Source: Lepidurus packardi | Lineage: Eukaryota; Arthropoda; Branchiopoda; Notostraca; Triopsidae | Reading direction: 5' to 3' | Assembly: GCA_023053545.1 (NCBI GenBank) | Contig: JAKZAN010000003.1 | Location: 219,501-283,500 of the forward strand | Length of the DNA: 64,000 nucleotides | Part shown: one piece after another, positions 18,794 to 60,660 of the stretch | Numbering within the stretch: the first letter of the stretch is position 1 | Layout of the letters: every line of letters begins with the position of its first letter | The notes under the pieces: model-generated | What the model was told of the DNA's origin: nothing | The model's database searches: none | Seen by the model: only the letters and a program-made list of their open reading frames with translations | Made by a program: the position numbers and the translations under genes

Positions 18794-18798
18794 GCAAG

Positions 18799-18993
18799 TA
18801 GTATGAGGTCATCTACATGCCCTCTATTGGTATGTAACCTTGAGGGCAGCTTTGCCTAGTGAGAGGTCCGTTAGGGAAGGTGAGAGAGAGGTAGTAAGAG
18901 TTGAGCGTCAACACGGTGACCATCGTTAGCTTGTGAGCCACGCATCCAATACACCAAATCTTAGTACCAAATTTAAGACTAGAAGTCATACCA
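18799..18993 (+). repeat. 5' LTR of nested Gypsy
   Basis: 195 bp, nearly identical to 23152-23345; followed directly by the primer-binding site at 18994-19007. Confidence 0.92.
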
Positions 18994-22000: not shown

Positions 22001-23094
22001 GTACTACCATCGTTAACGGATTTCTGAACCACAAATGCAATTTGCCTGAAGCATTGCGTCCATACTGGAACATCAGGAGCTCATTGGCGATCGATGAAGA
22101 AGACGGCATGCTGGTTGCGGGCCCACGAATCGTCCGAATCGAATTTGGTTCTAATGCACCAAGGTGCGACGAAGCCACGACAACGAGCGCGCCTATCACT
22201 TTACTGGCCAAACATGGACATGGACATCACGACTGCCGCACGATCATGTGATACATGCACGAAAAATCTGCCGTCGTTTCCCCCGGAACCAATGCGCCAC
22301 CACGAGCCGGCTTCCCGTCCGTTCGAAGTGATCCACGCAGACCTGGCAACGGTCAGAGGGCGAGATTTTCTGGTCATCGTGGACCAGTTCAGTGGATGGC
22401 CACACGTAACTGCGTTCTCAAACAAGAACACATCCGCTCAGAAGGTGGTGGATGCTGTTCGACGCTTCTTCGTTAACGGACCTGGAGCGCCGATCAAGTT
22501 CTTCACGGACAATGGACCTCAATTTGCAAGCGCAGAATTTAAGAGTTTCCTGAAAGATTGGGGAATAGTACACAGCACGTCGTCGCCGCCGTCAAGAGCA
22601 TGAAGAAGCTCATAGAAGGAGCATGGGTGGGAAGAACCTACAGCGAAGACAAGTTTGGCAAGTCGCTGTTGCTTTTCCGGAACGCTCCTAGGGAGGGCAT
22701 AGCCTCTCCAGCCCAGCTCGTTTTTGGGAGACCGGTGCGGGACCTTCTACCAGCGCATCGCCGCTCGTTTGAGACAAAATGGCAAAAGGCAGCGGTCGAG
22801 CTTGAGAAGAAAGCACGGCACACAAAGGAAGTCCGAAAAGCCAGCTATGACAAACGTGCACACGTTTTGCAAGACCTGTCTGTGGGGAGTCACGTCCTCA
22901 TTCAACACCCTGTTACTAAAAGGTGGGATACGCCAGGTGTCCGGGCGCAACCGGGATTACATGGTGAAAACACCTGCAGGGCGCACTTTCCGCCGCAACA
23001 GACGTTTTCTAAGGAGAAGAATTGCAGTTATGCCAGGCACAGGAGCAACATCAATGTCCGAGCCAGCGAGTGTTTTTATTCTCCTTGTATGTAA
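19048..23094 (+). mobile_element. gag-pol region of nested Gypsy element
   Basis: Gag is followed by two zinc knuckles (CSYCGSKKKHARTDC and CRKCGKTGHFKEVC), an aspartic protease with DTG (LPDTGADIYAIP), reverse transcriptase (LCVDFRELNKC, LPFGIRHAG, VVEDIVVFS), RNase H (LHVDASRLHGLGF, YAMIELECLGAAWAM) and an integrase whose core includes TDNGPQFASAEF. Most of the polyprotein is one long frame (19048-22251); the integrase end is broken about twice. It is a fossil copy, recently inserted. Confidence 0.9.
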
Positions 23095-23151
23095 GTAGTT
23101 ATGACCAACCAAAGTGTACTGTACTTCCCCAAAAGATAAAAAAAGGGGACA

Positions 23152-23345
23152 TGGTATGAGGTCATCTACATGCCCTCTATTGGTATGTAACCTTGAGGGC
23201 AGCTTTGCCTAGTGAGAGGTCAGTTAGGAAAGGTGAGAGAGAGGTAGTAAGAGTTGAGCGTCAACACGGTGACCATCGTTAGCTTGTGAGCCACGCATCT
23301 AATACACCAAATCTTAGTACCAAATTTAAGACTGAAGTCATACCA
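23152..23345 (+). repeat. 3' LTR of nested Gypsy
   Basis: 194 bp starting tggtatgagg and ending tcatacca, followed by the target duplication gcaag. Confidence 0.92.
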
Positions 23346-24343
23346 GCAAGACGGAACTCATACACTTCTCAAGGAAAAGAACTGACGAAACTACTGCCTT
23401 AACCTGGAATGAGGATGTTATATGCCCCAAAGACAGCGTTCGCAATCTTGGCCTAATTTTCGACACGAACTTAAACTGGTCAAAACAAGCTGCTCATCTT
23501 GCCTCAAAAGGGCATCACACAATTAGCAGACTACGCAAATTAATCACCTTCCTACCAACTATTAAAGTCAACCAACTAAGAACGCTGGTCCTGAGCCTCC
23601 TCTACTCGACAATTCTGTACGGTCTTCCAGCCTGGTCTAACACTAAGCTATCCTCCCTTGCCCCTGTACGAACACTACATAGACAAGCCCTGCTTCTTAT
23701 TACCGGTGCACTCAAAACTACCCCCACTTCAGCTCTTGAAGTTGAAACAGGCATTCCTCCTTTAAACCTCCTCTCGCTCGAAAGAACTCTAAGATTCAGC
23801 CACAACAACTCGACTATCCCAAACGCCATCGCACCGAAACACAAACGTTACGCCTCATGTTCATTCTTAATAGAGTCACTAGAAAATAACAACCTGCTCA
23901 CCGATAAGCCCCAAGACATGAAGAAAAGTATAAAGCATCTGATTTTACACAAATGGCAAGAAGAATGGTCTACCTCTGCCTCCCCCTTCCGCGATCTACA
24001 GATATCTCCAACGCTACAACCTATCTGCAAACTTGACCAAGACAGACGGACTATTTCTACACTTATCAGACTTAGAACCTTACATTTCCCGACAAAGTCA
24101 TTCCTCTACCGCATTAAAAAGACACAAGACCCAAATTGCACCTGTAACAACCACTCGAAACAAGACCTCAGACACATGTTTTTCCACTGCAGACTCTTAA
24201 ATAGATCCAGAGCTATTTTGCTAAGAGACTTATCAAAACTTCGACTCCACTTTAATGCACAGACTATACTCACAAACCCAACCGCTTACAAAGCAATAAA
24301 TACTTTCGCCATCTCGGCTCTAACAACCCTACATCCCAACTAA
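23346..24343 (+). pseudogene. LINE ORF2 last part
   Basis: Continues the interrupted LINE: SKTELIHFSRK, then LHRQALLLITGALKTTPTS, VETGIPPLNLL, and a C-terminal Cys/His motif (CTCNNHSKQDLRHMFFHC) typical of I/Jockey-group LINEs, stopping at 24341-24343. The 3' UTR and poly-A tail follow to 24583. Confidence 0.88.
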
Positions 24344-24589
24344 CCCACTAACCAGAAGTGACGCTGACTTCTCCCTGTCGTACGAGTTATCTGACTTTTT
24401 TAGAATAAGGAAAGAAGCTATTACCATATCTTTGCTATAGTATGGCTACGCTCTCCTTTCGAGGAATAGCGTAAATGAATGTATGTTTGTAAAATTGTTC
24501 ACTGATTACTTAACTTCAGACCCAATAAATAGGCGGCAACGAGCAGTGCTCATGCTGAGATAATTTAAAAAAAAAAAAAAAACAGAACA

Positions 24590-25732
24590 ACTAAATGAAA
24601 TCCTATCTCCATTACTTAACTCTACGATGATGCACACAATCCCTGATTTTACAGGAGAATCCGACGATGCATCAGTAAGACGATTTTTCCAAGATTTAGG
24701 ACGCATTGGTAGTACAATAGGATGGTCCGAACCACACCTACTCAAAGTAGCCGTAATTAAATTAAAAGGAGGCGCCGGTGCCTATTACAATACTATTTCT
24801 CCCCGCCCAACAACTTACACAGAATTCAAAACAGCTCTCTCCGAACGCTACGGTGACAGTCACCACGAATCACAAGCTATAGTCAAACTCCAGAATTGCA
24901 ATCAAGAGGCAAAACAACCAGTTCGTGACTTTGCAGACAAGATTCGTTCACTCACAAGACGAGTCCACGAAAACGATAGCCCCCCAGCTGGGAACGAAAT
25001 ATTAGACAAAATCATGCGCCTAAATTTTATCAGAGGACTTCTTCCTTATTTAAAACGCTACGCTCTAAGCGCCAATCCAACGAACCTTCGCGAAGCTATA
25101 GAAGTTGCAGCTCGAGAAGAAGCTAACGAAGCAGCAGTTCCCCACAATGTTAGTCTTCAGAATGAAATCGAAAAGCTTACAGCAGTTGTTGCTGCATTTA
25201 ATACTAGCGAACCTTCGTTCAGTCGCAGGAGCAGAAGCACTACCCCGAATAGACCTCCCAACTCGTACTCTTACGATCGAAACAGCTCGAGATATAGATC
25301 CCGAACCCATATAGATCCCAAAATTCATACAATCCCTCGAACCCGTATCGCGACACATCTCGCAGCGGCGATAGACAAGTCCGTTTCTCGGACCAGTTCT
25401 CACGAAATACGAACAGATTCCAGTCCCCAGGCAGGAACAACTTCAACCCTAGAAACCCCACCTTCCAACCACGCCCTAACTTTCGACCACGGTTCCCCCC
25501 AGGCCACCATACTGATAGGCTACAAGGCATGTCACGACCCCGAAATCCCAACATTGAATGTTGGTCATGTCGTAGACGAGGACACATAGCAGCTAACTGC
25601 CGAAACGAACCAATCAAACTAGAGGTGCTGACTGTGGCGCAACGAAAAGTTCAGTTGGCACCAGGTAGGAGAAGAAAAAACCTTTTTAAGAGACCTCTCG
25701 GTAGAATTTTTGCAAAATTTATTATAGGATAA
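24590..25732 (+). mobile_element. gag region of env-bearing Gypsy element
   Basis: Capsid-like helical sequence (for example FQDLGRIGSTIGW and LKGGAGAYYNTIS), a Ser/Arg-rich linker, and one zinc knuckle (CWSCRRRGHIAANC) near 25560. The start of the gene lies before the LINE insertion, at 15648. It is a fossil with about one break here. Confidence 0.85.
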
Positions 25733-27003
25733 ATGCCATTTAGGTGTTTAGCTGACACAGGTGCAGGCGTTACAGTTATGAATAAGCAAGCGTTTAATTT
25801 GCTGACACCGGACATTCCAGGAAAGCCAGTTCAAACTGATACAATCTTGAAATCAGTAACAGGAGAGAACCTGAATGTCTTCGGTTGTTATGAATTACCT
25901 TTTGAAATTCAAGGCCGTAAATTCAAAGTTGAATGTTACGTAGCAGAAGAGTTAACTCACGACATCATCCTCGGTATGGATGCGATTCAGAGCCAGAGCA
26001 TAGTTATTGACGGCGCGTCAATGGAAATAAGCATGCAGAAAGAGATTAATGTGGTAGGCCTTGCAAGGAACAGTTCCAGAGTGCAACTGCATAAGCAAGT
26101 GAAAATACCCGCGTACAGTAGAATCATTGCTACTGCCAAATCCGAGCACGATAACTCGCATGGAGCGGAAATTATTCTTGAGCCTGTTCAGCTAGACGAC
26201 GAATTCGTTTGTAGCGAACCAGCAATCGTAATAGGAAAGGGATGCGGTAAAATCCCAGTCTCGTTTTGGAATAATGGTCCTAACGCTGTTGTGTTGAAAC
26301 GAAACACAGTTATAGGAAGAGTTTGTAACGCCAGAGTGTCCGTGATTGCAGCAGTGCACTCACTTCCAAGTACAGAGTATCCGTTACTCGAGAACTTCGA
26401 TCTGTCTAATGTTACCCCTTCGCACAGGGATGAGCTATTAAAATTATTAATTGAATTTCGGGATATTTTAGCAAAAGATGATAACGATTTAGGCCGTACA
26501 AAACTTGTTAAACATACCATTCACACCAGAGGTTCCAATCCTATCTACCAGCGTCCGTACAGAGCGCCAGAAGCACAAAAAACAGTTATTAGACAGCATG
26601 TGGACGAAATGTTACATAGAGATATCATTAGACCTTCTTTCTCTCCTTGGGGAGCACCAGTAGTTTTAGTTAAAAAGAAAGATGGTACACAAAGGTTTTG
26701 CGTAGATTTTCGTAAAATTAATGCAGTTACAAGGAGAGATGTGTACCCTTTACCACGAATCGACGATACCTTGGATAAGTTAGGCAAAGCACGTTATTTT
26801 TTAGTTATGGACTTAGCATCAGGATATTGGCAAGTCGAGGTAGCAGAGGAAGATAAGTACAAGACAGCATTTACGACAAATTTGGGTCATTACGAGTTTA
26901 ATTGTTTACCTTTTGGGTTATCTAATGCCCCAGCAACTTTTCAAAGGCTAATGGATAAAATTCTCGCCGCCGAGAATAGACTTGAGAACGTGTTAGTATA
27001 CTT
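25733..27003 (+). mobile_element. pol of env-bearing Gypsy element: protease and reverse transcriptase, first part
   Basis: Aspartic protease with CLADTGAGVTVMN at the start, then a reverse transcriptase with RFCVDFRKINAVT and FNCLPFGLSNAPATFQRLMD. The sequence is interrupted by the BEL element inserted at 27004, directly ahead of the catalytic YLDD region, which lies at 32354 onward. Confidence 0.9.
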
Positions 27004-27238
27004 TGTCGGGGAACAATATACCAGGAGAGGTAGAAAAGTTAGAATTCCCGCCAGGTATGTTTGATGTACCCGAGAGGGGCGCTGGGGCGGGGCTCCTGCT
27101 ATTATTGGCAGGTTAGAGGTGTATGGTATATGGAAATAAAGGACCGTGACCCGACTCCATCAAATGAGTTTTGTATACATTACTATATATTCACAACTTA
27201 GTTAAGAAGAGTCTAATACTTTGTGTTGTGCTTATAAA
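27004..27238 (+). repeat. 5' LTR of BEL element
   Basis: 235 bp starting TGTCGGGGAACA; contains an AATAAA in tggaaataaagg. Same sequence as 32119-32353. Confidence 0.92.
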
Positions 27239-27255
27239 ATGGTCCTCCGAGCCGG

Positions 27256-28143
27256 ATGGCAACTGTAAAAGGAGATAATCCCGGAATCAAGACGCTTGAA
27301 GTAGAATCAAGCATGGAGCTTGATAGGCTGATCAGAAGAAGAGCGGCTTACAAAGGCCAAGTGACTAAACTGGTAAACCGTTTACGTCAAGAACTCGACA
27401 AAGATGACCGAGACGTCGAGGCACTTCAGAAGACACTAGAAAAACTGGAAATCCAAGAATCTGCGTTAAAAGCTCTCAACGAAAAGGCATTGGACCTAAT
27501 TGACCTGAACGAGATGGAAAAGGAAATCGAGAATGCCGAGACGTTTGGTGAATCGACGTTCGACTTGAAGCACGAAGCCAAAACAGTTCTTAAGGAAATA
27601 GAGAAGAAAACTGAATCCGAAAGAAGCCAGAATGTAAGCGGTTTATTCCCCTTCCCTTTGACAGGGCGAAACAAGAATCATTTCTCGAAGCCCAAAATCG
27701 CGTTAAAGAAGTTTAATGGAGAAAATTGGTACGAGTGGCCAGAATTTTGGGATTCATTCAAATCAGCCATAGATTCAGACGACGACCTTTCGCCAGGCGA
27801 GAAGTTCACCTACCTCAAGAGCCTCCTTGAAGAGCCCGCGTCAAAAACCATTCGAGGGATGCCGTTAACGGACGCAAATTACCCCATAGCAGTGGACCGC
27901 CTAGTCAAGAAGTATGGCCGTGACGACTTGATAGTTCAACAACATTTATCTTCGATCTGGAAAATAGAAGAAGTATCACCTTGCTCCATCGAACGAAAAG
28001 AAAGAAGATGCGAATGCCGAAGCTACGACCTTGATGACAAAGAGCGAATATATCAGCGAAAAGAAGCAAGCCATTTTCAGGACCGCATTAGTATGCCTGG
28101 AAAATCCTCAAGGAGAAAGAAAGAAAATCCGAATTCTTTTTGA
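27256..28143 (+). mobile_element. BEL gag region
   Basis: Charged N-terminal coiled coil typical of BEL/Pao gag (LIRRRAAYKGQVTKLVNRL), then the DUF1759-type capsid core (LKKFNGENWYEWPEFWDSF, SPGEKFTYLKSLL). It overlaps the following pol frame. Confidence 0.85.
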
Positions 28144-31100
28144 CTCAGCTTCGAACCGAAATTGGATAACGGACGAGATTGCCGAATTCTTAGAACCCTT
28201 TGATTACGAAGAAACTTCAACCCAGATTTTCGGCGGAAAAAGAACCCGAGGCGAAAACGGTATCTACGAACTGAAAATTCTCACCCAAGATCCCGAGGAA
28301 GAGGCCATCCACATTGTAGCTACCTCGACGAAACACATTATCGACCCCTTAGTAAGAAAGCCCTTAGACCCCAGCATCTTCCATACAGAATACAAACAAG
28401 TTGGAAGTAAATCAGACATCACGATCCATTTATCGGAAGTCGACTTGGCAGACAACGTTTGGGAGGAACCGATGCCAGTGGATCTACTTGTTGGAACAGA
28501 AGACGAGTGGGAATTCTTCACAGGACTCACCCTAAGGATCAACGCACCCCGGACACCTGTTCTTCTTGAATCTAAAGTCGGATGGATTTTATCTGGCGTA
28601 GACACCAGAAAACCAGCAGGAGAAGTGATTTCCTTAGTTACGATCTCAAATCAAGAATTGAACGAAAACGTGAAAAAATTTTGGACCTTGGAAACTCTCG
28701 GAATAAACCCCCAAGAAATTAACAACCCTTTGAGCAAAGAGGAAGAACTCGCAGTGAAGCTTTTCAAAAAATCTCTAAAATTTAAAGATGGGTACTACGA
28801 AGTTGGACTCCCTATGCCCCCTGAAAAACGAATTCTGAAGAATAACCGTGAAGAAGCTGTCAAGCGTCTGCTTCAACAAGAAAAAAGAATGACTAAGAAT
28901 CCCGTTTTGAAGAAAGCCTATGAAGAGGCTATTCAAGAGCACATAGACAAAGGACACGTAGAAGAAAAACCTCCCCATGAAGAAAAAGAGGGAGAATTCC
29001 GGTACTTACCACATCACATGGTGATCCGTCCCGAAAAAGAAACTACAAAGTATAGACTTTGTTTTGATGGGTCATCTAAAAGAGTTAACGAGAACTCCTT
29101 GAATGACATTGTCTTACCTGGACCCAACCCTGTACCGAACCTCCAAAAGATCCTATTGAACTTTAGATCCCACGCCGTCGCTATCTGCGCTGACGTCAAA
29201 CAAATGTTTCTAATGGTACGGATTCAAGAGAGCCATAGACCTTACCTGTCCTTTGTATTTTTCAAGAACGGTCAAATTCAAGATTACCAGTTCCGGGTAG
29301 CTTGTTTTGGCGTGAACGCGTTCCCATTCATTTGTACGGCCATCGTGAAAGAACATGCTTTGAAGTTTAAAGAATTCCATCCAGAAAGCGTGCAAACCAT
29401 CCTCGACGATTTCTACATTGACGATCTTCTAAGCGGTGCCGAAAACGAAGAGAAAGGCTGGATACTTTACAACGTCGTTAACGAAATAATGAAAACTGCT
29501 GGATTTGAATTAAGAAAATGGAAGACGAATTCATCAAAACTACAACGAGCTATCACTGGTCAAGAAAATCCCGAAGACCCTGAATTCGATCTCACCCTCC
29601 TAGAAAAAAGAGACAATAGCGAAAAAACTTTAGGTGTTGTGTGGGATCCCCGAGATGACTGCTTCAAATTTAAGACCCCGATAGCTACTGAAGATTTCGA
29701 AAGCAAAGCGCTAACAAAACGACTAGTCACAAGTTGGTCATTCAAGATTTACGACCCCTTGGGATTTATCTCGCCGTACACCGTACGTGCGAAAATCTTC
29801 ATACAAGACCTCTGGCGTGAAGGAAAAGAATGGGATGAGGAACTTTCCGCTCAAAGATCTGAAGAATGGAAACGTTGGCTACTCGAATCCAAGGACCTCC
29901 CGTTTGTAAAGATACCACGCAGAATCTTTACTGGAACAAGCTCCAAGAACCTCGAATTGCACATCTTCTGCGACGCGAGCGAAAAATCTTACGGATCAGT
30001 AGCGTATATAAGAGCCGAATCTCAAGATGGAAAAGTAGAAGTCAACTTCCTTTTATCCAAAACCCTAGTAGCCCCGATTAAGGGTAAGCTAACCATTCCG
30101 AAACTGGAGCTAATGTCATGTCTCATCTCAACAAGAATGGGGAAAATAATAACAGAAGATCTCAAGCTCGAGAAGAAATTACCTACGTATTATTGGTCGG
30201 ATTCAGAAGTCGCATTAAATTGGATTCGCTCTAACAGCCATGGCTTACCACCCTTCATAGCGAATCGAGTCTCAGAAATCCAAACACTGACCAATCCCGA
30301 AGAATGGAGACACTGCCCTGGAAAATTGAACCCGGCAGACAAGTGTTCCAGAGGATTGACCTTGAAAAATTTGGCCGAAGACCAAATTTGGTGGGGAGGA
30401 CCCACATTCCTCAAGAAATCGAAAGGAGACTGGCCAAAGAAGAAAGACGAAACCGCAATCATCGCCAAAGAATCGACTTGCCTCATAATTAAGGACTTTG
30501 AAGACCCAATCATCGATGACACCCGTTTCAGCAAGTGGACGAGATTGCTGAACACTACAGCAAGAGTTTTCCGTACAATTAAACACTGGAAAAACAAGAT
30601 GCCTGAAACGCAGAAAGGTGTTCCCTTTTCGTTAACCGAGATAGAAGAAGCGGAAACCTACTGGATCAAGCGAGTTCAACGCGAAGCTTACGATAAAGAC
30701 ATCCGTAACTTAACGAAAGGCAAGGAATTGGGGAAACATTCCAAAATTTCCATTTTCTTACCTTTCCAGGACGCCAGAGGGGTGCTCCGAGTGGGGGGAC
30801 GTCTCAACTTCGCAGCTGATCTCCTAGAAGATGAGATCCACCCGGTTCTGTTACCAAGCGACTGCCACATAGCAACTTTACTCGTCAGACACTTTCACGA
30901 GAAGAACTGCCATGCCGGTACTAACGATACGCTTAACGTGCTACGGAAGAAATTCTGGATAGCACAAGGCAGGAGGAAGGTGAAAGCCATCGTGAAATAC
31001 TGCACGACCTGCAGGAAAGTACTAGCAAAACCCTTAAACCAGCAAATGGCTCCACTTCCTACAGATAGAGTGACACGACATCACCCGTTCGAAGTCACAG

Positions 31101-32179
31101 GCTTGGACTTCGCTGGACCCCTGTACGTCACTACGGACAACGCAGAAACGAAGAAGGTGTACATTTGCCTTTTTACTTGTCTAACGATCAGGGCAGTACA
31201 CCTAGAACTCTGCTCCAACATGGACTCGCAATCTTTCTGGTGTGCATTGAAAAGATTCCAAGCCACCAGAGGGCCTTGCAAGACAATTTGGTCAGACAAC
31301 GCCAAGACTTTCAAGAAGGTGAACAAAGAGCTACAAAGCATCTGGGACGAAATTGAATCTCTCAGAGCAAATGAAGAATTTATTGCGTACCTGAATGTGA
31401 ACAAGATTGAATGGAAATTCATAATTGAAAGAGCACCCTGGTGGGGTGGCGTTTACGAGCGGATGGTCAAAACTGTAAAACTTGCTTTGAAAAAAGTATT
31501 GATGCGCAGCTCTGTTAATGAAGAACATCTCAGAACTTTGTTGAAAGAAGTAGAAAGTTTTGTAAACTCCAGACCCATTTCCTTTAGTAGTGACGATCCA
31601 TTTGAACCCAAACCTTTGTCACCAGCCAACTTTCTAATCTCAAGTACCTATTGTTTGTTACCTGACTCCGTACCTAAGAATGATCCCGAATTTTTGAGTC
31701 AATCTGATATTTTGAAAGAGTTCCTAGAAAATAGAGAGAAGATCTTGGAAGATCTGTGGAAACGGTGGAAAGAAGATTACCTGAAGGAGTTAACCTTGGT
31801 ATCGAAATGGCGAAAGCACAACAAAAACCCGTTGAAACCGGGTGACGTTGTGTTGATCTCCGAAGACAACTTACCCCGCATGCAATGGAAGATGGGAGTT
31901 ATCGAGGACGTTTACGAAGGAAGAGACAAGCTAGTCCGCAGTTGCAGCATTCGCACCAAACGAAACATTTTGCGTCGTCCAATTCAAAAGATACACCCAC
32001 TAGAACTCAGCATCAGCGGAAGAAAAGAAGATCAGAAAATTGAAGACTCCCATCGTGATCCACCATCCGAAGAGTTACGTGATGAGAATCAGCCCCCGGA
32101 TTCTCATGGTGGGGAGGATGTCGGGGAACAATATACCAGGAGAGGTAGAAAAGTTAGAATTCCCGCCAGGTATGTTTGA
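28031..32179 (+). mobile_element. BEL pol: protease, reverse transcriptase, RNase H, integrase
   Basis: One frame of about 1,380 residues with domains in BEL order: aspartic protease (RILFDSASNRNWI, BEL type), reverse transcriptase (YRLCFDGSSK, TILDDFYIDDLL), RNase H (LHIFCDASEKSYGSVAY, YYWSDSEVAL), an integrase with an HHCC finger (HFHEKNCHAGTNDTL, CTTCRK) and a DDE core (GLDFAGPLYV, WSDNAKTF, IIERAPWWGGVYERMV), then DUF5641 (KPGDVVLI). The frame runs into the 3' LTR, so the LTR encodes the last residues. Looks whole. Confidence 0.92.
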
Positions 32180-32353
32180 TGTACCCGAGAGGGGCGCTGG
32201 GGCGGGGCTCCTGCTATTATTGGCAGGTTAGAGGTGTATGGTATATGGAAATAAAGGACCGTGACCCGACTCCATCAAATGAGTTTTGTATACATTACTA
32301 TATATTCACAACTTAGTTAAGAAGAGTCTAATACTTTGTGTTGTGCTTATAAA
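32119..32353 (+). repeat. 3' LTR of BEL element
   Basis: 235 bp, identical by eye to 27004-27238, followed by the target duplication tactt at 32354-32358. Confidence 0.92.
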
Positions 32354-34783
32354 TACTTAGACGACATTATAGTTTTTTCCAAAACGTTCCCTGAACACAT
32401 TGTTCACCTCCGCGAAATTTTTTCTAGACTACGAGCCGCAGGCTTAAAACTAAAAGCCAAGAAATGTAATTTTTGCAAACCTTTAGTTAAATATCTAGGT
32501 CACATTGTCTCCGCGGAAGGAGTTCAACCTGACCCAGAAAAGATTTCAGCCGTTAAGAACTACCCGACACCAAGATCCGTAAAGGAAAATCGTTCCTTCC
32601 TAGGCTTAGCAGGATACTACAGGCGATTTATCAAAGACTACGCGCGTATAGCAAGACCGTTGAATAAACTAACTAAGAAACACAAAATTTAACTGGACAG
32701 ACAAAGAACATTCGGCTTTTACCACTTTAAAAGAATTTCTTATGAATAGCCCTACTTTAGCTTACCCAGATTTTTCAATACCATTCATACTTCACACAGA
32801 TGCTTGTGACACAGGACTAGGCGCTGTGTTAAGCCAAACCCATAACGGCCAAGAAAAAGTTATTGCTTACGCTAGCAAAACTCTAAGTGATACCGAATCA
32901 CGTTACGCTACGGTCGAAAGAGAAGCTTTAGCGATTATATTTGCAGTTAAGCATTTTCATCCTTATCTATACGGCAGACATTTTAAAGTAGTTACAGACC
33001 ACAACCCGTTAAATGGCTCATGAACAACAAAGACAGCTCTTCTAAATTGGCAAGATGGTCACTTAAACTTCAAGATTACGATATGGAAATCAAATACCGT
33101 CCCGGTGTTAAACACGGCAATGCCGACTGACTATCCCGAATTCCCGTCCATGCAATATCAAACAGTGATACGTTTGATACCGCCACCTTGCACGACCTTC
33201 AGTTAAGAAGACCCCTTTTGTTCAGCTATCGTATACTATTTAGAAAACGGAGAATTACAGGATAATAGCCCTAAGCATCCAGCATGGATGCACTAGAAAA
33301 CTATTTCTATTCACTAGAAAAATTTATTTTAGACGAAAACGGGTTACTCCTACACCTCCTTCAAATTAAAAAGTCACAAGAAATTACAGAACAAATAGTA
33401 GCTCCCGAGGCTATCAGGAAGGAGATAATGGTGTCCCTGCATGATCACAAACTGTCAGGACATTTAGCTTTCCAAAAGACACACGAAAAAGTTAGGCAGC
33501 GTTTTTATTGGCCTAGAATGTATTCTGAAATTAAACAATACTGCAAATCCTGTGAATCCTGTGCAAGACACAAGGATACTATTCGTACAGCGCCAGCCCC
33601 TATGGTTCCTTTGGAACCGGTTTCGGCGCCTATGGAACGTATTGACGTAGACGTTGTAGGCCCCTTACCACAGACCTACAGAGGTAACAAGTATATAGTT
33701 GTCTTTACAGATTATTTCACCAAATGGCCAGAAGCATTTGCGATACCCGATCAGAAAGCAGACACTATAGCTAGACTTTTTGTGGAAGAAATCATAGCTC
33801 GCCATGGTACACCCCGTATCCTACTCTCAGATAGAGGCACTAATTTCATGTCCCAGCTAGTGGCAGAAATCTGCAAACTTCTTGAAATCAAACAGGTTCG
33901 CACAACTGTGTACCACCCGCAGACAGATGGGTTGACAGAAAGGTTCAATAAAACTTTAATTTCCTTATTGAAACATTATGTTGAAAAATCACAACAGGAT
34001 TGGGATTCGCACATCCCATACGTTCTGTTCGCTTACAGAACATCGCTACAATCTTCCAGTTTAGGATCCCCATTGTTCCCGCTTTACGGTAGGGACCCTA
34101 CCCTACCAATCGACACGCTAATGACACAACCTCGGAAGAGTTATGCATTAGCGGTAGATTACAAAGCAGAAATGTTAGCACGCCTCACTTCAGCATGGGA
34201 AGTAGCCTGTAGAAATCTTCAAATAGCAACAGAAAATCAAAAACATTATTACGATCAGAATTCAAAAGAAGTAGCATACACTGTTGGTCAAAAGGTCTTT
34301 TTAAATAATCCAATGACAAAACCTGTATTAGCTAGGAAACTAGATTTAAAATGTCTAGGTCCCTTCAGAATCGTCGAGTTTACTTCTCCAGTAAATGTTC
34401 GAATTAGAGACACAAAAACTTCGAAAACAGAAATCGTCCACGTAAACAGACTAAAAACTTGCCGCGACACTAGCCCGTGGTCTTCAGAACCCCCACTCTA
34501 TACTGCCCCTACCCCTGTGTTACATGAAACACCCCCCTTCCCCCCAAGACAACTTTCTATAATTCCGCGAAAACCAACCCCGGTACTAGTAACGCCACCT
34601 CAAGTGATCGTTCCACCAATACCTTTACTAATTTCAAACCCAACAGTGCCCCCCGCAACTTCACCCGTACCCCCACTTCCACCCGTACCCAGAGCCGTTA
34701 CTAGAGCTCAAAATGCCGGCACAGCACGAGCATCAACGTCACAACCTTCACAAGCATTAACTCCCCTCAGGGAAATGTTCTAA
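32354..34783 (+). mobile_element. pol of env-bearing Gypsy element: rest of reverse transcriptase, RNase H, integrase
   Basis: Begins at the catalytic YLDDIIVFSK. It continues with the Gypsy thumb (AGYYRRFIKDYARIARPL), RNase H (LHTDACDTGLGAVLSQ, YATVEREALAII), the integrase HHCC finger (LSGHLAFQKTHEKVRQRFYW, CESCARH) and the DDE core (IDVDVVGPLPQ, LLSDRGTNFMS, TDGLTERFNKTL). It ends in a Pro-rich tail. The region is a fossil with about two breaks. Confidence 0.9.
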
Positions 34784-34944
34784 GACCAGTAACTTTAAGA
34801 GATCGGTCAACTCTTCGCCCCCGGGCGAAGTATACTTAAATTTCTTTTTTTTTACGTCTGAGCACGACAGACTTAACCAGCACATGGTTCTTATTAAAAA
34901 TAGAATGGTTACATTTCTTACATGTTAGTATACTACCATAGAAT
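34784..34944. other. Spacer between pol and the zinc-finger frame
   Basis: A/T-rich 160 bases. In env-bearing Gypsy elements a spliced RNA usually expresses the downstream gene; no acceptor was fixed by eye. Confidence 0.3.
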
Positions 34945-35520
34945 ATGAAATCCACCCCCCATACCGTCTACATCTGCCCCTACGCTTGCGGAGATAGCTT
35001 CATGCTAGCGGAGGCGACAGAACACCTCGCTGAGTGCCGCAAAACCAACGAGGATTCGTTGGTAGGTACGGGCCTGCACGTCTGTGGGTTCGATGCGGCT
35101 CATAACATCCCGACGGAGGCGTCCATGCGCCACATACTGGACGACTGCCCGTACGCCAACGCCCTCATGCATTACGAGAGCGTACAAAGCCTGGGACACG
35201 ACCACCCGAACGTGCACCCGCCACCTAAACCAACCGCTTTTAATACGCTCCCGTACAAAAACAGCGTAATCCTTCTGAAAGGGTTCGAGCGGCAAGTACT
35301 CCCGGACCACGGACTACCAAGACCCGACCACTTCGGTCTGCCAAACGACCTGGGCGTCCTCATGTTCACCCCCCAAACTATCGGCACGGAGGTAGGTCAC
35401 CAGACCAAAGTTGCACACCTCGAACCAAAGCAGGCGCACAGCCATCTCACTCACCCCACCCCACCCAATTCAGTACAGGAAGACCAATTTACCTGCCCAT
35501 TATTGTGGAAACGATATTAA
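34945..35520 (+). mobile_element. GTSF1/Asterix-like double CHHC zinc-finger frame in Gypsy element
   Basis: An uninterrupted frame of 191 residues. The second finger (35081-35151), CGFDAAHNIPTEASMRH followed by ILDDC, has C-x5-H-x9-H-x4-C, nearly the spacing of the CHHC fingers of GTSF1, U11-48K and TRM13. The first (CPYACGDSFMLAEATEH then LAEC) keeps the first Cys, last His and last Cys at the GTSF1 spacing but has Asp, or an extra nearby Cys, in place of the first His. The link CRKTNED resembles the CRKNHPD link between GTSF1 fingers. A second, similar pair is visible just downstream (about 35510-35660; CRNEHPDLQDTFLPC, then H at the expected places). GTSF1 helps PIWI proteins silence transposons and binds RNA, including tRNA. 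Its presence between pol and env is unexpected. The rest of the frame is low-complexity and unrecognised. The relationship is inferred from motif spacing only. Confidence 0.7.
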
Positions 35521-37477
35521 TACCAGGGACACGATAGGACACCTGGAGGAATGCCGTAACGAACACCCCGACCTCCAGGACACATTCCTACCATGCCCAC
35601 ACTCGAAGCTGCACCACATTCACCGGTCTGACGCCTTCGCACACACGTTTCAAACGCCATATTACGGCTTCTTCATCTTCTTCGTCAGCACTAGATTTTT
35701 GTCGACGACGCAAGCCATCGACATCACTATCTGCAACTGTAGCAACCCGAAAACCTTAAATTTCATCAATCTTAACAACATGCCACAGTGTAACCCTAGA
35801 AAACGCGACCTACCACCTACTACAATGAACTACACCCTAACTAAAGATTTAGAAGCTTCAACAACCTTTAAAGGATACGCCTGCGGCCAATGGCAAAGAC
35901 AACTAAAAATCGACTCGTTCTTCTTCGGAGGTCACGACACCATAACGGATAAGCAACCAATGGACACCTCCACAGACGCGCGTTACCATATGGTGCAAAC
36001 GCTCACTTGAAATGGTAACAAGATGTACCGTGAAGGAAACAAATGGGTTTTTGACGAGCTGCCAAAAGGAGACCCAGTCTGGATGACTACGCAAACTTAC
36101 ACCACCGCAAGTTGCTTCATGCAAGAAATCACGCTTCACAAGCAATGACCAACCTGCTCAGTTGACACCCCTTTTGGTACCACAAATGCCTCATACGATG
36201 CCGGATCCGTAACATGAAACCACATCACAGTAGTATGGAAGCCTACGGACATCGAAACAAAAACGAATACCTGTACCAACGTCACAATTGCCCTAGGCAT
36301 CGCCCTTTACTACTCTGCAACTACAAGCAAATACGGTAGGGTACAGGATAATAACAATCAACTTGAATTTTTTGTAGAAAAGACCCCTGTCTTAAACTGC
36401 GGAAAGTCCGGCGTACTACAAGTCGTTGGAATGCCGAAGCACTACATCCAGCTCTACCCCATCAGTACTATCCCCAGCCCAAAACCACAGACGGAACGGA
36501 ATATTTCAGCCACCGAAGAACTAGCAGCCCATCTCCAGTACATTCAAGATTCAGCAGTTTTCCGCGAAAATCAATTGGCAAGGGAAATATAAATTAATAA
36601 CTGCATTTACACACAAAATAGAGCAGCCCTGGTACCCTTAATCGCGCAGTTTAGTGGAATCCTCGCCGCACAGCTGCTCAGCTTTAATGATTGCGAAAGA
36701 ATTCTGCCGTTCGGAGGGACCGCGCTGCTCCAGAAATGCACTAAGGAAATACGCAACTTCACAACGGAAATCACCTCTTGTGGACCACAACCACGAACCG
36801 GAAACTATACAATTGGAAAAGATGGATTTACACTTTACCCCTTCAAAAACTGTTTTTGGCAGAACGGTCTAGTAAACTTCAATGGCGCGGCGTACCGATA
36901 CAACGGAACCGAGTGGGCCCCAGCCAATGCAACTAAGCTACCAGCATCCTATCAGCTTATCCGCAGTTTCAATGTATCACTAGATGCCACACTTTTCAAC
37001 CTCCTAGCAAACATCAACCCGGCTTACCACAAAGAACATCAGGAGAACATCAACATCCTTATGGACCTAATGCAGACTGTTGACGGATCAGCAACCCACA
37101 CGATAAGCGACTTAGTGTTTGATTTAAAGGCGAAAAACAATGTTAAAGGGATGTTCCAATGGACGAGCTACCTCAAAAACGGGTTAATTATAGGTACAGC
37201 AGCCATTGCTGGCCTCGTCGTGTTATCAATCCTTGTGAAACGTACACCTTGCCTATCGTCCGTCTGCAAAACCCTAACTCCAAAACCAAAAACACGCCGT
37301 CAACGACGCCAAGACGAAGAGACTGTAGAAATGCTCCCTCGACAGCCACCCCACAATCCAGCTATAATCACCACTCCAACCAATCTCCCTGTCTACGCCC
37401 TAATGCCCCCTAATAGCGCACCTCCTCCACCGTTGTACAGAACTAGAGCCAACGGAGACCCCAATTTCCGAACCTAA
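35521..37477 (+). mobile_element. Envelope-like glycoprotein region of Gypsy element
   Basis: After the zinc fingers come a hydrophobic, signal-like segment (FFIFFVSTRFLSTTQA near 35665), Cys-rich ectodomain sequence with N-x-S/T sites, and, near the 3' end (about 37165-37240), a membrane segment (LIIGTAAIAGLVVLSILV) followed by a Pro-rich cytoplasmic tail. This is the layout of a class I or III viral fusion glycoprotein. I do not see the furin site or fusion motif of baculovirus F-type Gypsy envelopes. The early CNCSNP...MPQC arrangement is more reminiscent of glycoproteins of arthropod mononegaviruses such as chuviruses, a weak resemblance. It is a fossil, broken several times. Confidence 0.55.
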
Positions 37478-37538
37478 GTCTTCGTTTGTAGGACGAATCC
37501 TGTTGCCGGGACGGCAACTTTTTCGATGGGTGGAGGGA

Positions 37539-38211
37539 TGTAAGGAGTAGAATTAGTAATAGTATAAATTTAAATCTCGATAACGATATACTAGGAAGAG
37601 TTAATAGATTAACACTTAACATACGATAAACACTGTTAACCATAAATGTAAAGGACAACGTAAAGACATCTCTCGTGCCGAGGCCAGAACCCTCGTGAAT
37701 GTCTATACGCAGTCCAAAGGTAATTTTAAGTTCCGAAGCCCAACGACGCAAGAAGAAGCAAAACAGCGATGCCAACCCAAGGACACAACCCAAGCCTAAG
37801 ATCACTTGAGGCCACGAAGGATAGACGAAACCGAGGTCACAACCCAAGCCTAATAAACCAATTGAGGCCACGGAAGGTAGAAACAACCGAAGCGCACCTC
37901 GATACCGATGTCCAACTGGCCTATAAATATGGACCCACCAGACGACAACGGGGCCCATTTCACCCACCTTCTCAGTCCCCGTAACATCAGTTCCCCTCCC
38001 TGTTCTTGGCCAAGGATACCCGTCCGCCGAGCAATCCCCCCAGCAGTCCATAGCAGCGCCATCACCGTCTATCGAGACCGAAGCCAACCGAAGCCAGCGA
38101 AGCCCTCACCCGAAGCCCAATCGACCCGACTCCCCCTGTCCCTCCTCTCTAAACCTGTACCGGCCCCGCTGATAGCAGACGTGAAATATACTGAATAAAC
38201 TGACTATCACA
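37539..38211 (+). repeat. 3' LTR of env-bearing Gypsy element
   Basis: 673 bp, about 98% identical to 14858-15530, preceded by a purine-rich tract (gatgggtggaggga) and followed by the target duplication gtag. Confidence 0.93.
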
Positions 38212-38480
38212 GTAGATTGAACTGTTTTTAAACCTTTTCCTCTACAGTTTGTGCGAATCAGACTTCAAGCAAATCTGCAAAAGCAAAACAAATTCGTCCG
38301 AATCCTTGTAAACTTAACAAACTACTGTGACAGTAATGTAGATAAAACTATTCTCAATAGTTTTAGTAATGTTTATTACACACCAAAATTCAAACAAATT
38401 TGCAAGAAGCAAAATCGTTTAAACAAAATCAAACCTTGAAAACTTCAAAATCTGCGGTGACAGTAATGTAGCTCGGATTA
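38212..38480. repeat. 130-bp tandem repeat into which the provirus inserted
   Basis: The unit end gtgacagtaatgtag recurs at 38327-38341 and 38457-38471 (period 130). A third unit ends exactly at the provirus left edge (ctgtaacagttatgtag, 14841-14857). Unit bodies share caaacaaattTGCaa-type sequence with clear divergence. Confidence 0.7.
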
Positions 38481-38765
38481 TTAAAAAATTTTTGTGTATT
38501 TTCCTTACACTTTAAATAACTGTTGTAGAAACAATGTGATGTACATTACTGTCACGGTAATATATAGATTCGAAGGATTGGATGCATTCGAAGGATTCTT
38601 TTTAGGTTCGTTATTCTCCATAATATGTTCGCTGTTATTATTGTGGTTCTCTCGTTTTTTCTGTTGTGACGGATCCTTATTCTCTTTGAGCGGTGTTGTG
38701 TAGCTTGTTTTCCTTCTGGCCAATCCTTATTCTCTTTAAGGTTTTCGTTTCGAACGATAGTGCCC
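38481..38765. other. No gene; inverted copy of the satellite motif
   Basis: tacattactgtcac at about 38541 is the reverse complement of the repeat motif gtgacagtaatgta upstream. Nothing else is recognised. Confidence 0.35.
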
Positions 38766-39165
38766 TGGTAAGGCAACAATGTGCATTGGTAAAGCACAAG
38801 TGTGCACCAGTACTGCACCTGTGCAGCACCAGTGTAGCATGCAGTGCACCCACTGCAACACCCGGGGCACCCCAGTACAGCACTCAGATTACCCCAGTGC
38901 AGCATTCAGACCACCCCAGTGCAAACCTATGTAGCACTCTGTGCGCACCGGTGCTTCACCGATCCTGCACTCAGTGTGAACAGGTGTGCTACCACTGTGC
39001 ACTGGTACTGCACCGGTGTAACACCACTGCACCCAGTGCAACACCCGGTGTGCACCAGCACGCACCAGATCAGCACTCAAGTGTACTCCAGTGTTCAACC
39101 AATGTTGCATCAGCCTACCACTCGATGCACACCAGTGGAGCACTCAGTCCACCCCAGTACTTAGG
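38766..39165. repeat. GC-rich degenerate minisatellite of CACCAGTG/GCAC motifs
   Basis: About 400 bases made of variants of gtgcaccagtgtagcac with irregular spacing of about 15-16 bases. Several frames on both strands are free of stops because of the composition, which explains the long apparent open frames here. No protein family is evident. Confidence 0.75.
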
Positions 39166-39345
39166 GCTAGTCTAAAAACACGATTTCATTGTTTCCGCTC
39201 CCAATTTTCCACAGGCCTAAAACTTTTGCAAAGAGCACACTTACGCATGCGCATAAGATGTTTTGAGCACATGTTCCCAGTTCCTCCATGCCTTTTTCTC
39301 GGCCACTTTTCTCTTTCTTCCTATATTTCACAACGCCGCTTCTAC

Positions 39346-39932
39346 CATGGCTTCGAAGAAGCAATCTGTGAACATATCCTGCGAGGATCGAGCTAAGCAG
39401 TTTCCGAAAGGAATTTTACATGCTGATGGTGGAAAGCTCTTTTGCACGATTTGAAATGTTAGTTTGGATCACACTAGAAAATGTTCAATTGATCGTCACC
39501 TTGAAACTCAAGCGCATCGTTCGAAAACAGAGGCAAAGGATGAGAATTCTGAATTAGTTAGTAAAAGACAATGCACAATCGTCGGAACGCTTAATCGCCA
39601 TACCGAATCTCGGGACGCCCGAAACTTGACTCACTTCAAACTTGTTGAGGCTTTTACAGAAGCTAATATACCCCTGGCGAAATTGGATCACCCTAAACTA
39701 CGTGAATATTTACAAGTACTAACTTGCACCCTGTTACTCCTGATTATTTAATTTTACGTATTCCAGGAATCCGTGAACAATTTATGCAAATTGCCCAATT
39801 CGAGTGCTCTACGAAGCCTTTACCAGGCAAAGGTTTATGCTGTGTTGCAAGAGGAGTTGCTTTTAAAAGTGTCTTCTTTTTCCTCTATCTCCATCGCAAC
39901 TGACGAGTCGAGCGATGTACAAGACTGTGGTG
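39346..39932 (+). pseudogene. CGGBP1-like / hAT transposase N-terminal relic
   Basis: Starts MASKKQSVNI. It then reads LHADGGKLFCT, a Cys/His finger spread over LDHTRKCSIDRHLETQAH, and the conserved FTEANIPLAKLDHPKLREYL, all matching CGGBP1, a host protein derived from a hAT transposon. After a possible short intron (about 39714-39766) comes SSISIATDESSDV, which fits the first catalytic Asp region of hAT transposases. A TGA at 39453-39455 replaces the Cys expected after FCT-I. The copy is cut off where a Gypsy relic begins. Probably a decayed hAT transposon. Confidence 0.75.
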
Positions 39933-43064
<3,132 letters not shown>

Positions 43065-47515: not shown

Positions 47516-48661
47516 ATGGAAACCAACGCGGCCTCGCTCGAACCCAAGAAGAAGAAAAAGGTTAAAGACTTTCCGAATCCGAATAACCCTTCCGAAATGT
47601 TCGAATCCCTCAGAAAACAAAACGAAGAGCTGTCAAAACAAGTGACAATCCTCAATTGCAAAGTCGAGGACCTTCTCCCAATTGCTGAATGTGTTCCCCA
47701 GCTTCAAGCGGAGGTTAAATACCTGAGAGAACTCATCAACAAACATGGAATCCAACCAAAACCTACTCCGTCGCCAATGGAAGGTCCTTGGTCCGTGGTA
47801 AACCGAAAACGGCCTTTACCCAAATCAACAAAGCCCGCCGCCTCCCCTATTCAATCAAGCCAACCCAGCCCGACGAATTACCAAAGACGACAACAAGATG
47901 AGCTTATCGTCTATGTTGAACAATTGAATGACGGAAAGAAGAAAGAAGTAGTCAAAAGAGAAGACTTACTACGTAATCTGGACAGGGACTTGCTTAAAAA
48001 GTTTGGCCCCAAGGCTCCCAACGTGATCGTGGCACGGAAAACGAAGAATTTAGTCGAACTCACACTTGGAAGCGAACGGGAAAAGAGTGAAACAGAGAAC
48101 CTCCTTCATGACACCACTTTGGACTCACTCGGCCCGATAAAAGTAACCTGCCCGAAACCACGTAAAGATTTAGTCATCCACCAAATCCCCAAACAATTTA
48201 ACTACGAAGAAATCGCCTCCCACCTGACTAGGAAAAACATAGCCACACAAATCGATTTCACTGCTGAGTCTCTACGCTGGCTGAACCCTGACAGCACGAA
48301 AGCCTTTGGTTCAATCCTGTTCACGTGCCCTTCGACTGACGCTAAAACGAGGCTGCTTAACCGAGGCTACCTATATGCCTTCAGCAGATCTGTACAGCTC
48401 GAAGACCGCCGCCAAGAGCATTTCACACAGTGCTATAACTGTCAGAAGTACGGTCACACCGCATTTTACTGCAAAGAAACACACCCGACTTGTGGGAAAT
48501 GCTCGGACAAACACAACACGAAAGAATGCACAAACAATACAAGGAAATGCCGAAACTGCGGAAGTAATCACTACTCCTTTGAAAGTAGCTGCCCAACGCG
48601 TATTGCTGAAAGGCAAAAACGCAACCCCACCGTTTCCCAAATCCATGCCCAAATCTATTGA
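47516..48661 (+). CDS. LINE ORF1, 381-residue CCHC protein
   Basis: An N-terminal basic patch (KKKKKVKDF, possible nuclear signal) is followed by a coiled coil (EMFESLRKQNEELSKQV), a Pro-rich linker, RRM-like folds (ELIVYVEQLND, LVIHQIPKQFNYEEI, STKAFGSILF) and three zinc knuckles (CYNCQKYGHTAFYC, CGKCSDKHNTKEC, CRNCGSNHYSFESSC). This is the usual build of ORF1 in I/Jockey-group LINEs: an RNA chaperone that packs the LINE transcript. The frame is intact. It ends in TGA at 48659-48661, overlapping the start of the ORF2 frame. Confidence 0.88.
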   Translation: METNAASLEPKKKKKVKDFPNPNNPSEMFESLRKQNEELSKQVTILNCKVEDLLPIAECVPQLQAEVKYLRELINKHGIQPKPTPSPMEGPWSVVNRKRPLPKSTKPAASPIQSSQPSPTNYQRRQQDELIVYVEQLNDGKKKEVVKREDLLRNLDRDLLKKFGPKAPNVIVARKTKNLVELTLGSEREKSETENLLHDTTLDSLGPIKVTCPKPRKDLVIHQIPKQFNYEEIASHLTRKNIATQIDFTAESLRWLNPDSTKAFGSILFTCPSTDAKTRLLNRGYLYAFSRSVQLEDRRQEHFTQCYNCQKYGHTAFYCKETHPTCGKCSDKHNTKECTNNTRKCRNCGSNHYSFESSCPTRIAERQKRNPTVSQIHAQIY

Positions 48662-51600
48662 CAGACGGAATAAAAATAATCTTCCATAACATAAGGAAAA
48701 GCAATGCTCAGCTGTCAGAAACGCTAAGAGAAGCTAACGACTTTAACGCTGACATTATAGCCATAATCGAACCCCCATCTAATCCCTCGACTCCCCTTTT
48801 TCATCACTTCACCTCATTCGAATCCCAGAGTGATTATAAAGGTGTTATATGCTTCAAAAGATGCAGAACACCTAACGTTTCTGTAGTTACCGTAACAGAC
48901 TTATATTCGATTATAAAAATAGCCCCAAAAGCATTTACACCCATATTCCTAATCATTGTGTACAGAAGACATACTGAGGACCTTGCGGAGCTTATGACCG
49001 AAATCTGGAGAGAACTACCTTCATCTTCCCAGAACGTAATTCTCTGCGGAGACTTCAACGCCCATCATTGGCACTGGGAGAACAAACCAGCAGATAAACC
49101 TGGAAGACAACTTTTCGATTTTATTACCGAAAAAAAATTAATTCTGCTCAATAGTTGGAATGTCTGCACCTTTAACAATGAAAGAGGAGACTTTTCAACT
49201 CTCGATTTGGCCTTTGCCTCTCCAAATATTGCTTTTTTAATAGACCTGCAAATTATCGACAAAACTTTTTTCCCAAACCTATCAGATCACGAAGCCATCC
49301 GCTTGCACATCGATATTCGAATCGAAAAACCTAAACAGGAAATATGGAACTACAACAAAACAAACTGGCCAAAACTAAATGCGGGCCTGGAACTAACACT
49401 ACAGAGGATAAAGGAGGCACTGACCGACATAGATACAGTGGAAAAACTCGACACCGCAGTTAACCTTTTAACTGAAGCTCTCTACAACTGCGCCCAGGTA
49501 CACATACCCAAAAGAAACATTACGAATCGAAAAAACCCGTGGTGGAATAACCAGCTCAATCTACTTCGAAAGGATGTAGCAAAATCACTCAGGGCTTACC
49601 GTGTCTTCCCAAGCTCGCTTAACGAACGCAAGTGGAAAGATGCTAGAAATAGCTATACGACAAAAGTACGCATCACCAAGGAAGAATACTGGAAGCGAAA
49701 ATTAGACACTTCAGATTCTCGAGTGTTATGGAACCTGGAAAGAAAATTTCGTGAATCAAGAAATTCTCTCTCCCTAGACCAACTTCTGGACGACAATCGT
49801 AAACCTTTTGCCAATGAAATCTCGAAGCTTAATTACCTTGCTGCTAAACTTCTCGATTGTAAAAGCTTCCCTCCCTCCACTGTAAACCAACATAAACAAA
49901 CAAGACGTACACACCCACAAAAGACTAGACAAAAAGACTTACCAACTGTGACTTTAGAAGAATTGGAACAAATAGTTCACTCCTTACCGAATATGAAAGC
50001 GCCTGGAATTGACTGCATACAACCAATCCTAATTAAAAAGACGTGGCAAACAATAAAAAGGATCACTATGGACATCTTTAATTCCAGCCTCAGACTATGT
50101 CACTTCCCCACTGCATGGAAAACAACAAAAATATTAGCTCTTCCAAAGCCAAATAAGGCTGACTACTCTAGCTTTAAAAACTTTCGCCCGATTGCCCTCT
50201 TGCCCTGTCTAGGCAAAGTCCTTGAAAAAGCAATCGCAGCCAAATTGTCGGAAATGTTAGAGAGTCATAAAGCCCTGTCTAACAACCAATGGGGTTTCCG
50301 ACCAAACAGGTCAACGACAAACGCGATGCTGCAATTGTCAGACAAAGTGCTTTCCGGCTTTGACAACGGCAAAGTAACCTCAGTTCTGTTACTGGATATC
50401 GAAGGCGCATTCAATAACGTAAATCACGGAAAACTCTGCCGGGAAGCGGAAAAGAAAAAGATACCAGCTTACCTAGTAAACTGGATTAAGAGTTTTCTGG
50501 TTAACAGACGCGGCTTCATCGCTAACGGACACAATAGGAGCGAAGCTTTTGGCATAGAAAAAGGGGTGCCTCAAGGGTCACCCCTCTCACCTGTACTGTT
50601 CACTATATACGTCGATGGAGCTCTCTCGTTAGTTAAAGCCAAGAACTCCCTATCAACGGGCTTTGCGGATGATATCCTATTAGCGACCACGAGCTCTTCC
50701 GAAAATATAAATATTGGCCGATTACAAAATGCACTAATATCGCTAGAAAAATGGGGGAAAAGACTGAGCCTAAACTTCGCCAAATCCAAAACAGAGCTTA
50801 TACATTTCTCCCGAAAACGTTTCCAAGACCCCGTTCCTCTGGAGTGGGGAGAAGAAATTATCCACGCAAAAAACAGTGTACGGTACCTAGGCCTACAATA
50901 TGATTCAAGGCTCGACTGGTCAGCCCACGCAAGTCTTCTCGCTTCCAAGGGCAGCCACACCATCTTCAAATTAAGAAAACTAGTGCAATTCATCCCCTCC
51001 ATAAGAATAGATCAACTAACAACTATAGTCAAGAGCACACTGTACTCAAGAATATTATATGGGTTACCTGCCTTGGCGAATGCGAATCTGCAGAACCTAC
51101 TCCCTGTGCGAGCGCTACACAGGCAAGCGCTCTTACTCATCACCGGCGCCCTAAAAACCACCCCTACTGCATCCCTCGAAGTAGAAGCGGGTATCCCTCC
51201 TTTAGATCTTCTCACGTTGAAAACGCTCCTACGATTCGCCCAGAAACTACCGGACGGACCAATTACGAAACCAAAACACGGAAGGTATAACACTTGCTCC
51301 CAGAGAATGATATCTTACAAGAATACTTACCCCATATCGGACAAATCCATGAACAAAGAGGCTGCGATTAACCTCATCATTCTTCAAAAATGGCAAAAGA
51401 AATGGTCTGACGCATCATCAACACTCAGAGACTTACATGTTACCCCGACCTTAAAACCAATTTGTAAACTCAAACTAGACAGAAAGACAATATCGACACT
51501 CATAAAATTAAGAACTGCCCATTTCCCGACTAAGACTTACCTCCACAGAATAAGAAAGACCGACGAGACGACCTGCACCTGCAACGGACTTTCAAAACAA

Positions 51601-60460: not shown

Positions 60461-60516
60461 ATTGTATCTATAACCCATGTCTAGTTTAGTTGTCACTCAA
60501 CCTTTGAAGCTGCAAG

Positions 60517-60660
60517 ATGGTTCATGATAAAAGATTTGGGAAGAAATGGCGCACTCGCTGTCGACAGGTTGCCGCGCAAACCCTTCAAACTCTAGCTGAA
60601 TGGTTGTCGATTATGACGCGTCTTATTTTAGCCTTTAAAGCGCGATCTTCGAGTGGGTAA
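60517..60660 (+). mobile_element. Polinton small basic protein (47 residues)
   Basis: A short intact frame beginning MVHDKRFGKKWRTRCR, strongly basic, then a hydrophobic helix (LAEWLSIMTRLILAF). It could be a core or membrane-active minor virion protein. Function is inferred only from composition and position between the polymerase and integrase genes. Confidence 0.4.

Follow-up and report, generated by a model that had tools for sequence, protein, structure and literature searches.

A GTSF1-like gene with two finger pairs between pol and env of a Gypsy lineage in Lepidurus packardi, and its possible role as a decoy in piRNA silencing

GTSF1 is an animal cofactor for the silencing of retrovirus-like elements, and elements in the germline are restrained by piRNAs. 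Genes of animal elements that counter piRNAs are, to our knowledge, hardly known. The locus studied here raises the question why an env-bearing Gypsy element of Lepidurus packardi has, between pol and env, a reading frame with fingers resembling those of GTSF1, whether this likeness reflects descent, and what the encoded protein might do for the element. The frame lies in a stretch of 64,000 nucleotides (the window; contig JAKZAN010000003.1, positions 219,501 to 283,500), from whose first letter all positions below are counted. Copies were searched for in the same genome (108.6 Mb) and are given as L numbers; the extra gene is called the module and its four fingers F1 to F4.

All features of the Gypsy element and its module lie on the forward strand. 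A gag gene (24564-25589, Pfam Retrotrans_gag), taken as part of the same element, is followed by the protease and the start of the reverse transcriptase (25733-27003, Pfam aspartyl protease and RVT_1), and the integrase end of pol is found at 33275-34783 (Pfam Integrase_H2C2 and rve). The pol gene is split by a BEL/Pao element (27004-32353), which is a recent nested insertion: its LTRs (27004-27238 and 32119-32353) are 235 nt each and identical, and TACTT flanks both sides. Downstream of the module, an env-like gene (35654-37477) is broken in the window copy, with frames at 35396-36010, 36218-36592 and 36593-37477; it obtained no Pfam match and is called env by place and anatomy only. A 3' LTR-like stretch (37539-37981) matches the LTR-like repeats of a short derivative, L004, at 85-93%, and comparison of 21001-25000 with 36501-41000 yielded no LTR pair. 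Both the module and the env ATG are preceded by pyrimidine tracts that end in AG, so that the two proteins could possibly be made from separate spliced messages. The same LTR-like repeat is matched at 90-94% by two further stretches of the window, 11382-11813 and 14858-15300. A hAT-type transposase and two LINE-like endonuclease/reverse transcriptase frames lie at 5653-7857, 16563-18859 and 48610-51774. Within 58364-63096, a DNA polymerase B gene at 58364-59653 is close to a chromodomain-bearing integrase at 61882-63096, an arrangement that is presumably like Polinton/Maverick.

The module of the window copy begins in an open frame (34942-35520) covering F1 and F2. A preliminary description of this DNA had reported a C-x5-H-x9-H-x4-C finger, a partial finger ahead of it and a CRKTNED link, and all of these are present in the frame. 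By ORF scan and PDB match, 34945-35520 encodes 191 aa plus stop, with the F1-F2 pair, a spacer and the start of F3. F1 (34975-35037, CPYACGDSFMLAEATEHLAEC) is the partial finger; aligned to mouse GTSF1 it reads C-x3-C-x11-H-x3-C, with Asp at the position of the first ligand His and an additional Cys at +4, and it is followed by the CRKTNED link. F2 (35083-35148, CGFDAAHNIPTEASMRHILDDC), placed by the same alignment, has the spacing C-x5-H-x9-H-x4-C. A second pair with the link CRNEHPD, earlier located at about 35510-35660, proved to be real, but it is split between frames and its F4 has no last Cys. F3 (35494-35554) starts in the first frame at 35494, while its main part (35501-35554) stands in a different frame, the shift falling within the finger; in L011-L014 the finger is open. 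The CRNEHPD link from F3 to F4 (35552-35572) corresponds to CRKNHPD of mouse GTSF1, which is aligned with it in other copies. According to comparison with other copies, F4 (35594-35644) is followed by a deletion: at about 35650 the window copy is short by some 240-300 bp, which takes out the module tail and the env start. The module gene of the window copy is broken, and other copies are open. A programmed frameshift common to the copies was rejected as an explanation, since the positions of the frame change differ between the window copy and L002.

The genome search returned 25 rows corresponding to 22 places (L021-L023 overlap L017-L019). Integrase, module and env stand in this order in eight places (L001, L002, L011-L016), among which L011 and L012 have an open frame of 305 codons and L013 and L014 one of 292 codons, with all four fingers in each. 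L017-L020 are truncated or rearranged. In L003-L010, F1-F2 is located upstream of a protease-reverse transcriptase piece (part of L003 reads N), and no match to F3-F4, integrase or env was found in the stretch read. L004 (661-3480) and L005-L010 are short derivatives in which direct repeats, 300 nt long or more, flank F1-F2 and the protease-reverse transcriptase piece; the two repeats are 100% alike in L004 and 99% in L010. Because these repeats match the LTR-like stretch 3' of env in the window, L004-L010 look like non-autonomous members of the Gypsy family.

The place of the module between pol and env, first described in the window, is kept across the family. The module is directly downstream in 8/8 places with integrase copies at least 76% identical, and module sequence is directly upstream in 11 of the 12 env copies at 93% identity or more, where the counts of integrase and env copies, coming from similarity searches of the genome, are lower bounds. 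The twelfth env copy lies about 5 kb past the module of L018, and the intervening sequence has no marker match. A sister family of env-bearing Gypsy elements (L070-L073) shares the pol-env order, with integrase 37-38% and env 34-39% identical to the window family. Unlike the window family, it is without the module: at the four sister junctions no F1-F2 or F3-F4 match was obtained at E<=1e-4, and the pol frame and the env start are close together (in L070 the pol frame stops and an env-like signal sequence starts, by eye, about 90 nt on). The difference is either a gain in the window's lineage or a loss in the sister family.

Sequence comparison was then the basis for judging the likeness to GTSF1. 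Against 177,635 PDB sequences, the window frame 34945-35520 had mouse GTSF1 as its sole match at E<=10 (E=9e-4), aligned over both fingers and the link, and frames containing F3-F4 likewise had mouse GTSF1 as best match (7.6e-4 for L013, 7.7e-4 for L011 and 6e-3 for L014). Two alignment profiles also placed it on top (9e-4 and 1.8e-3). The likeness suggested beforehand is therefore significant for each pair separately. A small GTSF1 profile, combining mouse GTSF1 and the 9nhb GTSF1 chain with two GTSF-type exons of the host, was run on 3489 frames, which include the profile's own two host exons and duplicate loci; it gave 1.1e-10 for L013 (two domains), 9.4e-6 for the window frame and 4.9e-4 for the window F3-F4 frame. 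For L011, L014 and the first pair of the window, the score was reached by 0/2000 full shuffles and 0/2000 shuffles keeping Cys and His.

The resemblance could in principle be convergent, the module consisting of two pairs of ordinary C2HC/C2H2-like fingers with an origin unrelated to GTSF1. The F1 and F3 ligands (C-x2/3-C-x11-H-x3-C) would fit this, as would weak matches of module frames in Pfam (zf-TRAF 0.093, zf-Di19 0.013 at best, zf_UBZ 0.014) and of an alignment profile to LYAR in PDB (0.52), and for the truncated F3-F4 frame of the window 2/2000 Cys/His-keeping shuffles reached the score (0/2000 full shuffles). We consider convergence very unlikely, as GTSF1 comes first for both pairs, in register through the link and the second finger, and the tail motif described below is an independent second likeness. 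A relationship of the module to GTSF1 is highly probable on these similarities, and the gene probably derives from a GTSF1 gene.

The duplication of the GTSF1-like module proposed earlier is borne out by L024, one of the diverged relatives. Used as a query, it matches F1-F2 at E 1e-9 to 8e-7 and F3-F4 at 1.3e-4 to 6e-3 in the same copies; the two pairs are therefore related to each other, which demonstrates an internal duplication. In a tree of finger pairs, the element pairs group with L024 and L025 (support 0.94), and the host-gene node has support 0. L024, L025 and L074 are diverged finger-pair relatives elsewhere in the genome, the first two being fragments; L024 is close to an apparent gag fragment.

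Other searches were negative. The Pfam profile zf-U11-48K (PF05253), a check suggested at the outset, had no match at E<=10 in eight module frames (two from the window, six from other copies), and it does match host GTSF-type exons. The L011 ORF, used as query in a large protein search, yielded 362 candidates, of which 0 were at E<=1, and alignments A1 and A2 scanned against IMG/VR yielded 80 and 151 pattern matches, 0 confirmed. Single-sequence structure models of the 191-aa frame and a 73-aa piece (pLDDT 31 and 40) were too poor for use.

Within the fingers, several ligands and contact residues have changed. F4 has the same spacing as F2, and F3 reads C-x2-C-x11-H-x3-C; F1 and F3 are without the first His, which serves CHHC fingers as second zinc ligand, and have another Cys instead. 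The H-x4-C spacing had been regarded as a GTSF1 trait, which is not correct: the published CHHC motif is CP-x4-H-x9-H-x3-C (PMC9539491, accessible text), one residue different. RNA binding by mouse GTSF1 requires R26, R29, K36 and K39 (PMC9385479, accessible text). These align with M, E, E, K in window F1 (1/4 kept) and with N, D, E, N in L011 F3 (0/4 kept), and because so few basic residues are kept, binding of RNA or tRNA is less likely. The suggestion that the module helps with RNA or tRNA is weakened accordingly. As a nucleocapsid or export factor, the protein would bind RNA or tRNA through its fingers for genome packaging, primer placement or RNA export. Structured RNA is bound by GTSF1 and other CHHC proteins (accessible text of PMC9539491), and the LTR element Cer1 of C. 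elegans has its own RNA-export protein (accessible text of PMC10309623); against these precedents stand the residue replacements in F1 and F3, and such a role is quite unlikely.

The end of the module protein offers a second point of comparison. Of 21 module places, 11 have a tail E-[I/M/L]-W-D-stop (L002, L011-L018, L020, L056), and in the other ten (L001, L003-L010, L019) none was found; where present, it has this form in 11/11. It is continuous with F4 in five of the eleven (L011, L012, L015, L017, L056) and lies in a different frame or past stops in the remaining six. In the accessible part of PMC10711660, I98, W99, D100 and D101 of silkworm BmGtsf1L touch a pocket in an extended Tudor domain of Vreteno, the W99A mutant no longer binds Vreteno, and W99 and D100 are termed broadly conserved; the W-D of the module tail thus resembles the I-W-D-D tail of BmGtsf1L. 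Among five host GTSF-type loci, two (L027, L029) have E-x-W-D-D-E downstream of the fingers in open frame. Across all loci, with duplicates and the tails of the elements counted, 33 of 8814 frames have the pattern [DE]xWD. By analogy, a protein with the E-[I/M/L]-W-D end may dock on components of the piRNA pathway. Mouse GTSF1 binds PIWI via W98, W107 and W112 (PMC9385479, accessible text). L011 has just W39 and W304, the part of L017 has one tryptophan, and the last Trp alone is conserved; PIWI binding by the module protein is doubtful because the mouse protein uses three.

Such a tail would also serve a tether. A GTSF1-derived protein could use it to carry element RNA, Gag or an envelope precursor to germ granules, which would promote transmission and leave silencing unblocked, and two observations speak for this: the tail is similar to a motif that docks on an extended Tudor protein in the piRNA machinery, and it is uniformly conserved. 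No motif for binding of element RNA or Gag was identified, however, and most RNA-binding residues are gone from the finger pairs. The tether is unlikely in our estimation, and it appears the strongest rival to the reading preferred below; RNA packaging looks weaker because of the residue changes.

To evaluate constraint, dN/dS was calculated between copies; two env rows against L014 were out of frame and were left out of the set. In six comparisons of F3-F4, dS was 0.59-1.16 and dN/dS 0.09-0.27, which demonstrates purifying selection on this pair. F1-F2 had dN/dS of 0.39-0.57, a mild constraint. Between the window copy and L011, the integrase had dS 0.05 and dN/dS 0.34, and F1-F2 had dS 0.29 and dN/dS 0.52; for env of L002 and L011 the values were 0.07 and 0.34. 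The integrase of L002 against that of the window gave dN/dS 1.09 in a short row (78 codons, 12 changes). The module could alternatively be a functionless passenger, given that many copies are broken, the window's among them, and that the eight derivatives L003-L010 have F1-F2 and are without F3-F4 in the stretch read. This is highly improbable in view of the F3-F4 ratios at such dS and of a tail kept wherever it is present; the passenger reading appears largely refuted for F3-F4 and the tail, and less so for F1-F2. It is likely, judging from these ratios, that the module has been retained as a working gene.

The divergence along the element is uneven. In steps of 100 nt, the window copy and L011 are 92-100% identical in pol, 79-89% in the module and 91-99% in env, and L011 and L014 are 96-100% identical through F1-F2, 68-86% in F3-F4 and 94-100% at the tail. 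From these profiles, three F3-F4 variants exist among L002-, L011- and L014-like copies, sitting within otherwise similar elements. Because dS is raised as well, protein selection alone does not account for the variants, and we read them as cassettes swapped between older lineages.

Taken together, these features suggest that a Gypsy parasite may have taken over a piece of the host defence system. In the reading we prefer, an env-bearing Gypsy lineage has an additional gene, about 305 codons long and placed between pol and env, composed of two tandem GTSF1-type finger pairs from a duplication and an E-[I/M/L]-W-D end of the kind used by a Gtsf protein to dock on a piRNA-pathway partner. The protein would bind partners of GTSF1, namely an extended Tudor protein like Vreteno and perhaps PIWI; with most RNA-binding residues lost, it would occupy these partners without aiding piRNA-guided silencing, and the element would be protected in germ cells. 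As a whole, a GTSF1-derived gene whose fingers and tail form a decoy protecting the element is the best explanation, with a probability of roughly 0.45, and the decoy mechanism on its own stands slightly below an even chance. More tentative is the fuller proposal that RNA-blind doubled pairs with a W-D tail compete for extended Tudor and PIWI partners, that the variant exchange resembles an arms race, and that the whole amounts to counter-defence by mimicry.

The module resembles GTSF1/Asterix and Gtsf1-like PIWI cofactors in the tandem pair, the CR-x-x-HPD link in F3-F4 and the best PDB match. Unlike GTSF1/Asterix, which has one pair, it has two pairs, the frames being 305 or 292 codons long, and is encoded by a retroelement; its F1 and F3 zinc ligands are altered, F2 and F4 have H-x4-C, the RNA-binding residues are mostly lost and PF05253 is silent. 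By sequence, it is outside the GTSF1 family in the strict sense on four counts (PF05253, ligands, RNA-binding residues, one pair) and GTSF1-like by similarity, link and tail. U11-48K and TRM13 are CHHC proteins of the same finger class (PMC9539491, PMC9385479, accessible texts), with single fingers in those seen there as opposed to the pairs of the module; in the PDB searches U11-48K was matched by a host GTSF-type exon and not by the element frames. LTR elements that have captured additional ORFs are known, and those of bdelloids, like the window family, have an additional non-env ORF after pol (PMC5408684, accessible text). Unlike the module, the bdelloid ORF3s belong to the GDSL esterase and DEDDy exonuclease families, and the terms GTSF, CHHC and zinc finger are absent from the main text of that study (PMC5408684, accessible text). 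The preliminary description knew of no Gypsy element with this module, and our literature search, with most subscription papers outside its reach, likewise found no precedent, nor any GTSF1-like gene in a transposable element.

A retroelement gene made of GTSF1 fingers and a docking tail is a concrete counter-piRNA candidate for existing biochemical assays, and it would extend the range of additional ORFs in LTR elements by a host-like gene of regulatory type. If true, the decoy would let a transposon counter piRNA silencing by mimicry of a component of the pathway. The three F3-F4 variants in otherwise similar elements would provide a route to study whether changes in the host and in the parasite drive one another.

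On the host side, five loci have PF05253 fingers above the cut-off (L026-L031), some with two fingers; the locus on C2 appears twice, as L029 and L031, and was counted once. PIWI-clade genes are also present: three pieces were fetched and two were tested, with silkworm Siwi as the best match for both. One COX1-like nuclear copy in this genome appears to be of arthropod type. In the same assembly, 41 COX1 matches were observed on contigs C52, C214, C43 and others. Three are stop-free and lie on small contigs, which we take to be bacterial from their appearance; the others mostly have TGA inside, and these are presumably like mitochondrial copies in the nucleus.
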